NCBI GenBank assembly: GCA_944332815.1
Contig: CALVKQ010000001.1
Location: 242,579 to 306,578, forward strand
Origin: an uncultured Clostridia bacterium
GTDB lineage: Bacteria > Bacillota > Clostridia > Christensenellales > CAG-917
Reading direction: 5' to 3'
Length of the DNA: 64,000 nucleotides
The position numbers were made by a program, and so were the translations under genes. Below, one piece after another: positions 24,580 through 50,890 of this stretch. Numbering within the stretch: position 1 is the first letter of the stretch; every line of letters starts with the position of its first letter. The notes beneath the pieces are model-generated. The model saw only the letters and a program-made list of their open reading frames with translations. It searched no databases and was not told the DNA's origin.

Positions 24580-26303
24580 CACTTCTCCTCGTCCTCGGAG
24601 CCTGCGTCCTTAGCGTCCGCAGTCGGGTCCGCGATATCCACCGCGTCCTCTTCGAACACCTCTCCTTCCGCCTCGCCGAAGTTGGCTTCAGGAGCGGCGG
24701 CATTGAGTTCGCCGCCCTCCGCGCCTGCCGTCACGGTGACGTAACCGCCGGGGTCCTGCTTGCCGTAGAGCTCGTGCACGAGAGCGGTGCGCTCCGCCTC
24801 TTCCTCGTCGGAAAGCACGGTGCCTGCCTTTCGCGCTTCGATGAAGTATCTGACGCGCGTAAGTTTCTTGTTGGTGATCTTATAGTTGAACGACGCCCAA
24901 AGCGCTATCGCGATGAACACGACAATGGCAAGCCCCATGATGAGCCTTATCGCCAGCAGGACCTCTTCGGACTGCGGGATGTATTTGGTGGGGTCGTCGC
25001 TGTCGTTGGAAATATATCCGAGCGGATCGAGTATCCAACCGATAAGCCCTACGCCCAGTGCGCCGGCGATCTTTCTCGCAAGCGTCATCATGCCGCTGTA
25101 AGTGCCGGTGGAGCGCTCGCCCGTCGCCATCTGCCCCACGTCCACGGTGTCCGGGAAGATTATCCAGGGCATCATCTGCGCGCCGCCGAAACCGAAGCCC
25201 ATGAGCACTGCCGCGATGGGGACGAGGATGGGATGCGCCCAGCTGGGATCCATGACGCAGAGCAGGATGCCTGCGATGATGTAGGCAGGCAGCCCCATGC
25301 GGAAGGCAAACTGCTTGCTCTTCTTGTCCATGACATAACGCGCGAGGGGGAACATGATGACCGCAGACACCATGAGAGGCGCGATGATGAAGAGAGAGGA
25401 CATATCCCAGTCAAAGAGCTTATGGCCGTGCCAAACGTCCGTCGCATAGTAGACGGCGAGGGCGGAGATCATGTCCAGGCAGATGAACGCCGCAACGTAC
25501 ATGACGATGTGCCAGCGGTAGGAGCGGTTCTTATAGGGGGTGAGATAGCTGTTGAAAAACTGTTTGAGGTTGAATTTCTCTTTGGGTGCGGTCGCCTTGA
25601 TGCGTTCTTTGACAAAGAGTCCGCAGATGATGAGTCCGCCGCCGAAGAGCACGCCGAAGATGATGGAAAGCGACAGCCAGAACTCCGTCGTGGACATGTT
25701 CGGCATGAAAAGGTAACCTTTTTCATTGATAAGCGCTTCTATGAACAGCAGAGGCAGCACGTATGCAAGTCCGCTCGCCGCCGCATTGAACACCAGTTTG
25801 ACCGTGTTGGCGTTGTTGCGCTCCTTGAACGAAGGGGAAATGTCGCTTGACATGGAACAGTACGGCACCATCGCGATGGTAGAGAACGTGTTCCACAAAA
25901 TGTACATGATGACTATGAACGCCGTAAATCCGCCGACAGACACTCCCCAGTCCCTTATGGGCATGAACATCACGAAAATGCCGATGAGCAGCAGCACGCC
26001 GCCCGAGAACATGTACGGCTTACGCCTTCCGAACCGCCCCCTCGTATTGTCCGAGATGAAGCCCATAAGAGGGTCGGTGATGGCGTCCCAGAACTTTGCG
26101 ACGAGCATGATGGTGGAAGCGATCGCCATCTCGATGCCCATCGTCGTCATGTACTTCAACATGACGCAGGACATCAGCGCAACGCCGCCGCCATCCATGA
26201 ACGCGCCGCAACCGTAAGCTAACTTTTCTTTGGTGGGGACATAGTCCGGGGATTGCCTGTAAGACAGGTCTTTAACGGGTTTTTCGGCTTTTGTTCTTGC
26301 CAT
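24579..26303 (-). CDS. MFS/GPH-type sugar:cation symporter
   Basis: A 574-residue transporter with about 12 membrane segments and the GPH-family landmarks KFWDAITDPLMGFISDNT and RGRFGRRKPYM after TM2/TM3. ATG 26303 is chosen over the longer ORF because of GAGGAGA 6 nt upstream. The last 100 residues are a long, acidic cytoplasmic tail, unusual for GPH proteins. It is probably cotranscribed with the overlapping phosphoesterase. A possible promoter (TTGCGC, 18 bp, TATCAT) lies just upstream. It is related to but clearly distinct from the transporter at 208-2262. Confidence 0.88.
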   Translation of the reverse strand: MARTKAEKPVKDLSYRQSPDYVPTKEKLAYGCGAFMDGGGVALMSCVMLKYMTTMGIEMAIASTIMLVAKFWDAITDPLMGFISDNTRGRFGRRKPYMFSGGVLLLIGIFVMFMPIRDWGVSVGGFTAFIVIMYILWNTFSTIAMVPYCSMSSDISPSFKERNNANTVKLVFNAAASGLAYVLPLLFIEALINEKGYLFMPNMSTTEFWLSLSIIFGVLFGGGLIICGLFVKERIKATAPKEKFNLKQFFNSYLTPYKNRSYRWHIVMYVAAFICLDMISALAVYYATDVWHGHKLFDWDMSSLFIIAPLMVSAVIMFPLARYVMDKKSKQFAFRMGLPAYIIAGILLCVMDPSWAHPILVPIAAVLMGFGFGGAQMMPWIIFPDTVDVGQMATGERSTGTYSGMMTLARKIAGALGVGLIGWILDPLGYISNDSDDPTKYIPQSEEVLLAIRLIMGLAIVVFIAIALWASFNYKITNKKLTRVRYFIEARKAGTVLSDEEEAERTALVHELYGKQDPGGYVTVTAGAEGGELNAAAPEANFGEAEGEVFEEDAVDIADPTADAKDAGSEDEEK

Positions 26304-26412
26304 AAAAACTCTCCTCAAACGTAATCAAGAGCATGATAACATACGCGCGCGCCTCCGCGCAATCCATTAAATACAATTCCCCTCGGATTTTTAACTTATT
26401 TTTAATCTCACG

Positions 26413-26715
26413 CCGACCCCATCCCGGGGAACATCCGCGCTTGACGGAAAAATCCACCGATCAACTATGCGTTGTTCTCCAAAGCGAGCAGAAGGGTTGC
26501 AGGTCGCATTCTTGCGAATGCGAGGGCAAGGGAGTTTACTTGGGCGTAAATGACCGAAGCCAGAGCATGAAGTAAGGATGTCGAGATGCGCCCTTATCCT
26601 CGCTTTGGCGTACCATGAGGGATTCGTGAGGAGCGTGCTCGACACGCGACGATAAAGCGAATGCGCCGCACGTATTCTGCGAGCGGAGCCGAGCAGGCGG
26701 CGCAGAGCGTCACCC
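26413..26715 (-). repeat. tRNA-Arg(ACG)-tail repeat unit, distal copy
   Basis: A 303-bp block nearly identical to 26963-27264. Read on the minus strand it contains the 89-bp core (26626-26714), then a 23-bp copy of the tRNA-Arg(ACG) 3' end from the T loop through CCA (26604-26626), then a roughly 190-bp tail segment with no ORF I accept. Confidence 0.9.
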
Positions 26716-26716
26716 G

Positions 26717-26941
26717 TGCCGGACAGGACCGATCCGGACCTGCCTCGGAGCAATTCTTTTCGGCGCTTTCGCGCAGCCGGAATTTGCCAATATGTAAACT
26801 ATTGCCTGCGTTCCGCTTGCACAAAATCATCCGAAAATCTCTTGCTCCGAGGTGCGAACAGTTCTTCGCCGTCAATTTTTACAAGTAAAAAAAGCGTGAC
26901 CCTGCGGCGGCGAACCCGATCCGTATCGCTCCTTTCCGGCC
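26717..26941 (-). mobile_element. MITE-like element, GC-rich subfamily
   Basis: About 225 bp with imperfect terminal inverted repeats beginning TGCCGGACAGGACC and ending CTTTCCGGC. An inner inverted repeat (CCTCGGAGCAA ... TTGCTCCGAGG) is shared with the 279-bp elements at 36954 and 37981. It is inserted in the linker just before the 89-bp core of the distal repeat unit. It encodes no protein. A second copy lies at 50517-50739 in the opposite orientation. Confidence 0.75.
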
Positions 26942-26962
26942 TGGTAAGAATCCCTCGGGGAA

Positions 26963-27264
26963 CCGACCCCATCCCGGGGAACATCCGCGCCTGACGGAAA
27001 AATCCACCGATCAACTATGCGTTGTTCTCCAAAGCGAGCAGAAGGGTTGCAGGTCGCATTCTTGCGAATGCGAGGGCAAGGGAGTTTACTTGGGCGTAAA
27101 TGACCGAAGCCCGAGCATGAAGTAAGGATGTCGAGATGCGCCCTTATCCTCGCTTTGGCGTACCATGAGGGTTCGTGAGGAGCGTGCTCGACACGCGACG
27201 ATAAAGCGAATGCGCCGCACGTATTCTGCGAGCGGAGTCGAGCAGGCGGCGCAGAGCGTCACCC
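26963..27264 (-). repeat. tRNA-Arg(ACG)-tail repeat unit, proximal copy
   Basis: Matches 26413-26715 with very few differences. Core 27175-27263; tRNA-tail copy 27154-27175 with one base missing relative to the tRNA; tail segment 26963-27153. It follows the real tRNA terminator directly. Confidence 0.9.
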
Positions 27265-27292
27265 TCGGGTAAGAATCCCTCGGGAAAGAAAA

Positions 27293-27324
27293 AACAGAGC
27301 CGCGAGTTTATCCGCGACTCTGTT
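27293..27324 (-). terminator. Terminator of tRNA-Arg(ACG)
   Basis: On the minus strand a long stem (ACAGAGTCGCG / CGCGGCTCTGT) is followed by TTTTTTC directly after the tRNA CCA end. Confidence 0.85.
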
Positions 27325-27401
27325 TGGCGTACCATGAGGGATTCGAACCCCCGACCTTCTGGTCCGTAGCCAGACGCTCTATCCAGCTGGGCTAATGGTA
27401 C
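27325..27401 (-). tRNA. tRNA-Arg (anticodon ACG)
   Basis: 77 nt including an encoded CCA. The acceptor stem GTACCAT/ATGGTAC is perfect. The anticodon loop CTACGGA between TCTGG and CCAGA gives anticodon ACG, and the T loop is TTCGAAT. A consensus promoter (27422-27450) and a terminator flank it. It reads CGU-family arginine codons, presumably after A34 deamination. Confidence 0.96.
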
Positions 27402-27421
27402 ACGCTCTCACGAGCATTAAG

Positions 27422-50062: not shown

Positions 50063-50139
50063 GTTTCCGTAGCTCAGTAGGATAGAGCGTCCGCCTCCTA
50101 AGCGGAAGGTCGTGGGTTCGAATCCCGCCGGGAACGCCA
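50063..50139 (+). tRNA. tRNA-Arg (anticodon CCT)
   Basis: 77 nt with an encoded CCA. Acceptor GTTTCCG/CGGGAAC (one G-U pair), D arm GCTC...GAGC, anticodon stem TCCGC/GCGGA with loop CTCCTAA giving anticodon CCT, and T arm GTGGGTTCGAATCCCGC. Reads AGG. Confidence 0.96.
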
Positions 50140-50141
50140 GC

Positions 50142-50170
50142 AGACCCCACTCAAAAGTGGGGTCTTTTGC
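50142..50170 (+). terminator. Terminator of tRNA-Arg(CCT)
   Basis: AGACCCCACT/AGTGGGGTCT stem, AAAA-type loop, then TTTTGC. The same terminator is repeated with each tRNA-tail copy downstream (near 50305, 50466 and 50852). Confidence 0.9.
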
Positions 50171-50194
50171 TTCCCACGGGATTCTCTCCCCGTG

Positions 50195-50283
50195 GCTGAC
50201 GCTCTGCGCCGCCTGCTCGACTCCGCTCGCAGAATACGTGCGCCGCATTCGCTTTATCGTCGCGTGTTAAGCACGCTCCTCAC
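50195..50283 (+). repeat. 89-bp tRNA-associated core, copy 1 at tRNA-Arg(CCT)
   Basis: Begins GCTGACGCTCTGCGCCGCC and ends GCACGCTCCTCAC. Same length and nearly the same sequence as 50357-50445, 50742-50830 and, on the minus strand, 26626-26714 and 27175-27263. Confidence 0.92.
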
Positions 50284-50445
50284 GAATCCGCCGGAACGCC
50301 AGCAGACCCCACTCAAAAGTGGGGTCTTTTGCTTCCCACGGGATTCTCTCCCCGTGGCTGACGCTCTGCGCCGCCTGCTCGACTCCGCTCGCAGAATACG
50401 TGCGCCGCATTCGCTTTATCGTCGCGTGTCAAGCACGCTCCTCAC
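50284..50445 (+). repeat. tRNA-Arg(CCT)-tail repeat unit 2
   Basis: A tRNA-tail copy from GAATCC in the T loop through GCC and the terminator (50284-50343), then the 89-bp core (50357-50445). One base is missing in the tail relative to the tRNA (CCGGAACGCC). Confidence 0.9.
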
Positions 50446-50830
50446 GAATCCGCCGGGAACGCCAGCAGACCCCACTCAAAAGTGGGGTCTTTTGCTTCCC
50501 ACGGGCTTCTTACCCAGCCGGAAAGAAGCGATACGGATCGGGTTCGACGCCGCAGGCTCGCGCTTTTTCGCTTATAGAAATTGACGGCGGAGAACTGCTC
50601 GCACCTCGGAGCAAGAGATTTTCGGATGATTTTGTGCAAGCGGAACGCAGCCAATAGTTTACATATTGGCAAGTTCCGGCTGCGCGAAAGCGCCGAAAAG
50701 AATTGCTCCGAGGCTGGTCCGGATCGGTTCTGTCCGGCACGGCTGACGCTCTGCGCCGCCTGCTCGACTCCGCTCGCAGAATACGTGCGCCGCATTCGCT
50801 TTATCGTCGCGTGTTAAGCACGCTCCTCAC
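50446..50830 (+). repeat. tRNA-Arg(CCT)-tail repeat unit 3, interrupted by a MITE
   Basis: tRNA tail plus terminator (50446-50510), then the MITE at 50517-50739, then the 89-bp core (50742-50830). Confidence 0.88.
50517..50739 (-). mobile_element. MITE-like element, GC-rich subfamily, copy 2
   Basis: About 223 bp, the reverse complement of the element at 26717-26941, with ends GCCGGAAAGAAGCG and TTCTGTCCGGCA. It sits at the same point of the repeat unit (between tail/linker and core) as the other copy. The short frames read through it are not genes. Confidence 0.78.
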
Positions 50831-50890
50831 GAATCCGCCGGGAACGCCGGCAGACCCCACTCAAAAGTGGGGTCTTTTGCTTCCCACGGG
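50831..50890 (+). repeat. Final tRNA-Arg(CCT)-tail copy
   Basis: GAATCCGCCGGGAACGCC plus the tRNA-type terminator; no core follows, so the array ends here. Confidence 0.88.

Follow-up and report, generated by a model that had tools for sequence, protein, structure and literature searches.

Repeat units behind two tRNA-Arg genes

The window, by which we mean the whole 64,000-nucleotide stretch of DNA analysed here, carries an intact tRNA-Arg(ACG) gene on its minus strand, followed by two repeat units that each contain a copy of the 3' end of that tRNA. These units had been described in the original prediction, and both are real and correctly placed. Read in the direction of the tRNA, the features of the locus are the following:

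27325..27401, minus strand, intact tRNA-Arg(ACG) (ARAGORN and Rfam)
27285..27324, minus strand, first intrinsic terminator behind tRNA-Arg(ACG), read directly
27273..27281, minus strand, inverted arm S1, GAGGGATTC, the reverse complement of the tRNA-Arg(ACG) tail GAATCCCTC
27175..27261, minus strand, core (module) copy 1, TGACGC...CTCCTCAC, 87 nt
27156..27174, minus strand, tail copy 1, GAACCCTCATGGTACGCCA, tRNA-Arg(ACG) positions 57-76 minus one base
26963..27155, minus strand, 193-bp block after tail copy 1, repeated behind tail copy 2 (repeat family D1)
26948..26956, minus strand, second inverted arm of the array, GAGGGATTC
26713..26940, minus strand, separate palindromic element of ~227 bp that breaks up unit 2
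26626..26712, minus strand, core (module) copy 2
26606..26625, minus strand, tail copy 2, identical to tRNA-Arg(ACG) at 20/20 positions from position 57 to CCA
26413..26605, minus strand, 193-bp block after tail copy 2

The two whole units are 98-99% alike, and the opening hairpin of the 193-bp block at 26963..27155 is unlike the first terminator of tRNA-Arg(ACG). The predicted start of the tail copies in the T loop was borne out, as they begin at tRNA position 57 and reach CCA. To the earlier description we add an inverted copy of the tail before each core, the ~227-bp palindromic element, and a second array within the same window, in which three units follow tRNA-Arg(CCT):

50063..50139, plus strand, intact tRNA-Arg(CCT)
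50140..50172, plus strand, terminator of tRNA-Arg(CCT), duplicated along with each tail copy
50175..50184, plus strand, inverted arm CACGGGATTC, of which CGGGATTC is complementary to the local tail GAATCCCG
50197..50283, plus strand, core (module) of unit 1
50284..50301, plus strand, tRNA-Arg(CCT) tail copy of unit 1, minus two bases
50359..50445, plus strand, core (module) of unit 2
50446..50464, plus strand, tRNA-Arg(CCT) tail copy of unit 2
50517..50743, plus strand, second window copy of the ~227-bp palindromic element
50744..50830, plus strand, core (module) of unit 3
50831..50849, plus strand, tRNA-Arg(CCT) tail copy of unit 3

The ~227-bp element thus breaks one unit in each window array (26713-26940 and 50517-50743), at the same spot of the unit, and another species (G005) has it at its orthologous Arg-ACG locus. 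It is a nested palindrome, GCCGGAAAG...CTGTCCGGC enclosing an inner CCTCGGAGCAA...TTGCTCCGAGG, and its inner part was found inverted near Ser-TGA (L035).

The module itself has the order GACG–hairpin A–TATTCC–GTC–hairpin B–TCCTTAC and ranges from ~54 nt in its shortest forms to ~87 nt in the window. Both hairpins covary. Stem A occurs in the compensatory types GCGATTG/CAATCGC, GCTATTG/CAATAGC and GCCATTG/CAATGGC, while the 81 distinct sequences of hairpin B have a mean stem of 3.27 bp, compared with 0.70 bp for shuffled letters; most hairpin B stems are 2-7 bp long and start with G-C.

Between the first terminator and the core stands the inverted copy of the first 8-12 nt of the tail. Across 44 units, complementarity of this arm averaged 8.2 with the unit's own tail and 5.4 with other tRNAs, and the own tail surpassed at least 90% of other tRNAs in 27 of the 44; at non-tRNA sites, arm complementarity is weak (mean 5.4). 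The Ser cassettes have terminator and core in common and differ jointly in arm and tail, GGAGGGATTC occurring with GAATCCCTCC and GCAGGGATTT with AAATCCCTGC. Selection for pairing, template switching at a quasi-palindrome, or copying from the target could each produce the match between arm and tail.

Distribution among tRNA loci and related genomes

The 1.63-Mb genome contains 13 copies of the core hairpin CTGCTCGNNNCCGCTCGCAGA. Every one of them lies directly downstream of a tRNA gene and on its strand (two at Arg-ACG, three at Arg-CCT, four at Asn and two each at Thr-CGT and Trp), and each is joined to the tail of its own tRNA. The check proposed with the original prediction, a comparison of core copies with their tRNA neighbours, therefore supports tRNA-directed insertion and refutes chance neighbours in this genome. 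Variant cores with a similar right junction follow Tyr, Val-TAC, Pro-CGG, Pro-GGG, Ser-GGA and Ser-TGA. At Leu-TAG, a unit begins at the contig end, and the tails for Leu-CAG, Ala-CGC and Thr-GGT lie beyond an island or a contig break. At these loci, too, the tail copied belongs to the local tRNA. Counting those severed by a contig end or island, nine of nine matches to the module pattern in this genome are downstream of tRNAs. Contigs end within arrays at the starts of C1, C3 and C13 and at the ends of C2 and C5. A recurrent terminator family, GGAATAATACGAAC...GTTCGTATTATT, was also seen behind unrelated tRNAs, namely at the left end of the Leu-CAG island and at Ser-GCT and Ser-GGA.

A copy of a tRNA's own 20-nt tail matching at no fewer than 16 of 20 positions was detected within 1.5 kb downstream of 10 of the 43 tRNAs, with identities of up to 20/20; for one of these ten (Met), the match is merely the neighbouring tRNA-Met. 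When the downstream regions of other tRNAs served as the control, 26 of 1656 comparisons reached 16/20 and none exceeded 17/20, and upstream of the genes only one of the 43 tRNAs reached 16/20. Because own-tail copies attain 20/20, a level that the 1656 control comparisons never approached beyond 17/20, a chance origin of these copies is excluded.

The arrays at Arg-CCT, Asn, Trp and Thr repeat in tandem together with their terminators, and small deletions occur in the tail copies at Thr-CGT, Trp and the first Arg units. Tandem repetition of this kind is what would be expected from plain tandem duplication and gene conversion, in which replication slippage at palindromes had copied the tRNA 3' end, the terminator and a hairpin downstream, and template switching had kept arms and tails alike, with no mobile cassette involved. 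Template switching at quasi-palindromes is an established source of mutations, and such local copying also agrees with the way in which tails follow species-specific changes of the local tRNA, both at Ala-CGC (GAGTCCCC, GAATCCCC and GAATCCCCTTA) and at Leu-TAG (GAGTCCC and AAATCCC). However, the proximal terminator differs from the distal one at the single-unit loci Ser-GGA, Tyr and Val, and one and the same module stands, with precise junctions, behind unrelated tRNAs and tmRNA and in non-tRNA repeats. We regard duplication of this sort as a rather improbable source of the units.

In this genome and 18 of 60 relatives, the right junction of the module, CTCCTTAC/RARTC (the slash marking the join), gave 69 matches, compared with about five for a reversed control. 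For 45 tails a tRNA lay no more than 3 kb upstream, and 37 of these matched it at 15/20 or better. Unit after unit, the tail copy starts at position 57 immediately after CTCCTTAC, the right end of the module joining it in the T loop at TTC/RA. In the relatives, the module follows over 20 tRNA species as well as tmRNA. The cassettes of this group of uncultured gut-type Clostridia are folded, occur behind many tRNAs and are fused at one T-loop point to the tail of the tRNA concerned, which gives them the appearance of a small parasitic element, or of an insertion process, that enters hairpin loops of tRNA genes and spares the tRNA.

A pattern scan with GCTATTCCGTCGN{3,18}CTCCTTAC over a collection of 84,980 species genomes returned at least 118 stretches. 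Those listed derive nearly all from uncultured Clostridia (Christensenellaceae, Coproplasma, Gallimonas, Limihabitans and similar), and one is from Elusimicrobiaceae. Among the 137 matches listed, 70 have a same-strand tRNA within 2.5 kb upstream, and 40 of these 70 carry its tail at 16/20 or better. The viral contigs searched with the module pattern yielded no match, and a viral origin of the module was rejected for this reason.

Two pairs of congeneric species provided occupied and empty sites. At Ser-GCT, the occupied locus of G008 reads tRNA–terminator–arm–core–tail–CTAGGGAATAATACGAAC..., and at the empty locus of G000 the tRNA is followed directly by TTAGGGAATAATACGAAC.... At Leu-CAA, two units precede ACGAGCAAAAAC in G006, and in G000 this sequence lies directly behind the tRNA. 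In both pairs, the difference is bounded by tail repeats and the empty tRNA runs straight into the distal flank of the occupied locus. Each pair could equally result from insertion or from loss via recombination between tails.

These empty sites, as well as T-loop breakpoints and duplicated tails resembling attL and attR, would fit leftovers of elements with a tyrosine or serine integrase for which the tRNA T loop served as attB, and the original prediction had indeed read the units as scars of small integrations or as an element capturing tRNA tails. Its own remarks that no integrase is present and that the units are too small for an island hold, as units are as a rule below 300 bp and lack an integrase. 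In addition, no conventional attP could fit such a variety of tRNA tails, and the anticodon-loop and intergenic sites of the module (see below) have only TTC^RA in common. True Leu-CAG islands with a large serine recombinase arrived later and cross over elsewhere, in the last bases of the tRNA (GCACCA end), separating it from the older units. What stands of that reading is tRNA-directed insertion with the local tail; the module is not tRNA-specific, and an origin as ordinary integrase scars is highly unlikely. The notion that the units are scars of islands was likewise rejected, real islands at Leu-CAG being separate from them. The islands in question (L144 and L146, in G000 and G009) measure 13.7-15.8 kb and lie at the 3' end of tRNA-Leu(CAG); that of G000 also encodes a tyrosine integrase and an apparent type III restriction system.

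Sites beyond tRNA tails and a candidate insertion mechanism

Sites in other genera were collected by pattern-based searches of metagenome-assembled genomes, which make up most of the genomes, and are described here among the matches listed. At three tmRNA genes (L165, L187 and L257), a unit 191 nt behind the gene carries a copy of the tmRNA 3' tail, of the type GGTTC/GACTCC. At tRNA-Ser(UGA), in L160 and L222, units lie antisense on the 5' side and the copies begin in the anticodon loop (TTTTC/AAGACC). The module is also inserted into palindromic repeats unrelated to tRNA, where it stands between GTCATT and GACC(G/A)AG; uninterrupted copies in the same genomes read GTCATTTCGACC. In such repeats GTCATTTC/GACC turns into GTCATT–module–GACC, and one genome holds both states, the uninterrupted GTCATTTC/GACCGAGCGACAGCGAGCGG and GTCATT–module–GACCGAGCGACAGCGAGCGG (L217/L223). 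In this genome no core lies away from a tRNA; in other Clostridia the module is not confined to tRNA genes.

In uninterrupted copies, TTC is the commonest triplet before the right flank, both at tRNA-type sites (73, the next triplet having 15) and at non-tRNA sites (28, the next having 10). Its presence in both site classes, together with the tmRNA, anticodon-loop and repeat sites, speaks for a target at the level of DNA, TTC^RA within a palindrome loop, and not for tRNA function as what the sites have in common.

The same sites bear on a possible role as RNA. Read-through of the terminator could yield an RtT-like RNA with a tRNA-like 3' end, its CCA tail paired to the arm, and this RNA could play a part in the metabolism of tRNA or in the stringent response. 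Compensatory change in the two hairpins and in the arm/tail stem is consistent with such a role, as are the location of units on the strand of the tRNA and an architecture like that of E. coli tyrT/RtT, which is annotated as the small RNA RttR. On the other hand, the module is also found in non-tRNA repeats and, at tRNA-Ser(UGA), in antisense orientation on the 5' side, the tail copies often have deletions in the T-stem or acceptor strand, and occupancy varies among congeneric species. We consider a functional RNA an unlikely explanation.

Our preferred reading, which we hold to be moderately probable, invokes a short, non-autonomous cassette of hairpins that enters the loops of palindromes in DNA at TTC^RA; copies at tRNA genes would persist where the outer part of the tRNA has been duplicated. 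The targets on offer would be the T-arms of tRNAs and tmRNAs, the anticodon arm of tRNA-Ser(UGA) in antisense orientation and some palindromic repeats between genes, probably exposed as a single-stranded hairpin or a cruciform. In palindromic repeats, the cassette would take the place of the loop bases. In a tRNA gene, insertion would destroy the tRNA, and the forms seen would be survivors in which the outer part (the tail, usually with the terminator) is present twice, the inner tail copy completing the tRNA and the outer one remaining joined to the cassette. Such survivor bias would account for the constant agreement between the tail and the local tRNA. The tail copies could then recombine with one another, which would multiply tandem units, remove units and keep the copies alike.

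Plain insertion into the T loop predicts the 5' strand of the T-stem as the left flank and does not explain the match of the arm. This left flank is clear only in L163, and is indicated by stem match in L171, L180 and L236. In L163 (reverse strand, about 387-537), a 77-nt module replaces T54-C56 of a tRNA-Trp gene, and no second tRNA-Trp was found in the assembly. As a lesser variant of the more far-reaching version given below, a module might stay inside a tRNA; this single case may be a pseudogene or an assembly problem. When 188 modules were tested by joining their flanks for directly interrupted tRNAs, L163 and one doubtful case (L177) emerged.

We also offer, tentatively, a more far-reaching version, in which the cassettes form a new class of non-autonomous element. 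Such an element would target the hairpin loop (TTC^RA) in tRNA and tmRNA genes and would form its two outer arms anew from the target. This version is suggested by the Ser-GGA, Ser-TGA and Ser-GCT cassettes, as their direct tail copy and their inverted arm both vary with the tRNA entered. If the arms are truly copied from the target, the cassette would be unusual among mobile elements in how its ends are generated.

The search for a transposase or recombinase linked to the module found none. A RAYT-like tyrosine transposase is encoded in this genome (L039, 1402-2238) and is bracketed by GGGGACGGGCTTATTTTGTCC inverted repeats unlike the module. Within the genus, the presence of RAYT correlates weakly with unit number (U test, p about 0.05), a result that is unsafe given kinship, and the RAYT model had no match in the module-bearing genomes G001, G003, G006, G016, G022, G024 and G031. 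Mobilisation by RAYT/REP was rejected, because the resident gene has its own repeats and is absent from several module-bearing genomes. The Y1 transposase (PF01797) is likewise absent from several of these, including G006 and G016 (both at least 97% complete). The 37 genomes searched for the DEDD transposase (PF01548) include module-bearing relatives, none of which has it, and the units were accordingly rejected as IS110 cargo.

Comparison with known systems

Genomic islands targeted to tRNA genes resemble the present loci in that a 3' segment of the tRNA is present in duplicate and bounds the occupied site, with an empty site elsewhere. They differ in that module units are as a rule shorter than 300 bp, have no integrase and use another crossover point than the Leu-CAG islands. 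Repeats of a tRNA tail need not mark islands, and their arrays can break contigs. Non-autonomous elements derived from IS200/IS605 are similarly small and hairpin-ended, and like the module lack target duplication at non-tRNA sites, but several module-bearing genomes have no Y1 transposase.

REP/REPIN sequences with GTAG or CGTC tags are short imperfect palindromes with a tag beside the hairpin (PMC3733652), comparable with the GTAAGGA on the reverse strand of the module and the CGTC before hairpin B, and L152 contains an inverted module pair reminiscent of a REPIN. Unlike GTAG REP/REPIN sequences, however, the module has no GTAG at the hairpin foot, its right end reading GTAAGGAG on the reverse strand, and no cognate RAYT is flanked by the module repeat. 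CGTC REPs combine the tag with a stem of 8-9 bp that almost always starts with complementary A/T (PMC3733652), whereas hairpin B, despite its preceding CGTC, has stems mostly of 2-7 bp starting with G-C. In this genome, moreover, the module is tRNA-bound rather than dispersed.

Our literature search on tRNA-tail repeats, made in open-access papers, found nothing specific. The E. coli tyrT locus is a known example of repeats behind a tRNA that carry its tail, and we know of no settled origin for them. The tyrT/RtT repeats (RF00391, RttR) are 178-bp tandem units behind a tRNA. Their tail copies (19/20) start at A58 in the T loop, and their hairpin-rich core is preceded by an inverted arm, GGGGAAGGAT, that matches the tRNA tail. 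The core is unrelated to ours: RF00391 matches E. coli tyrT four times, as a positive control, but none of the present units. At the gathering score Rfam gave no RtT hit in the window, RF00391 had none at E<=5 in 26300-27420, and a known RNA family was rejected, as no Rfam family matches the units. In E. coli K-12 (L267), the tyrT-tyrV spacer GTGAGGAGCGAAGCGACG resembles the reverse strand of the Clostridia module, possibly by chance. As judged from sequence, the architecture is common to the tyrT repeats and the Clostridia units and the core is not. In the E. coli locus examined, the repeats sit at a single tRNA, whereas the Clostridia module is found at over 20 tRNA species, at tmRNA and at sites unrelated to tRNA. 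The combination of a tyrT-like architecture with an unrelated core at many tRNAs, tmRNA and non-tRNA palindromes amounts to a natural experiment, and the common target (a hairpin loop with TTC^RA), together with precise occupied and empty sites, makes the mechanism of insertion testable.
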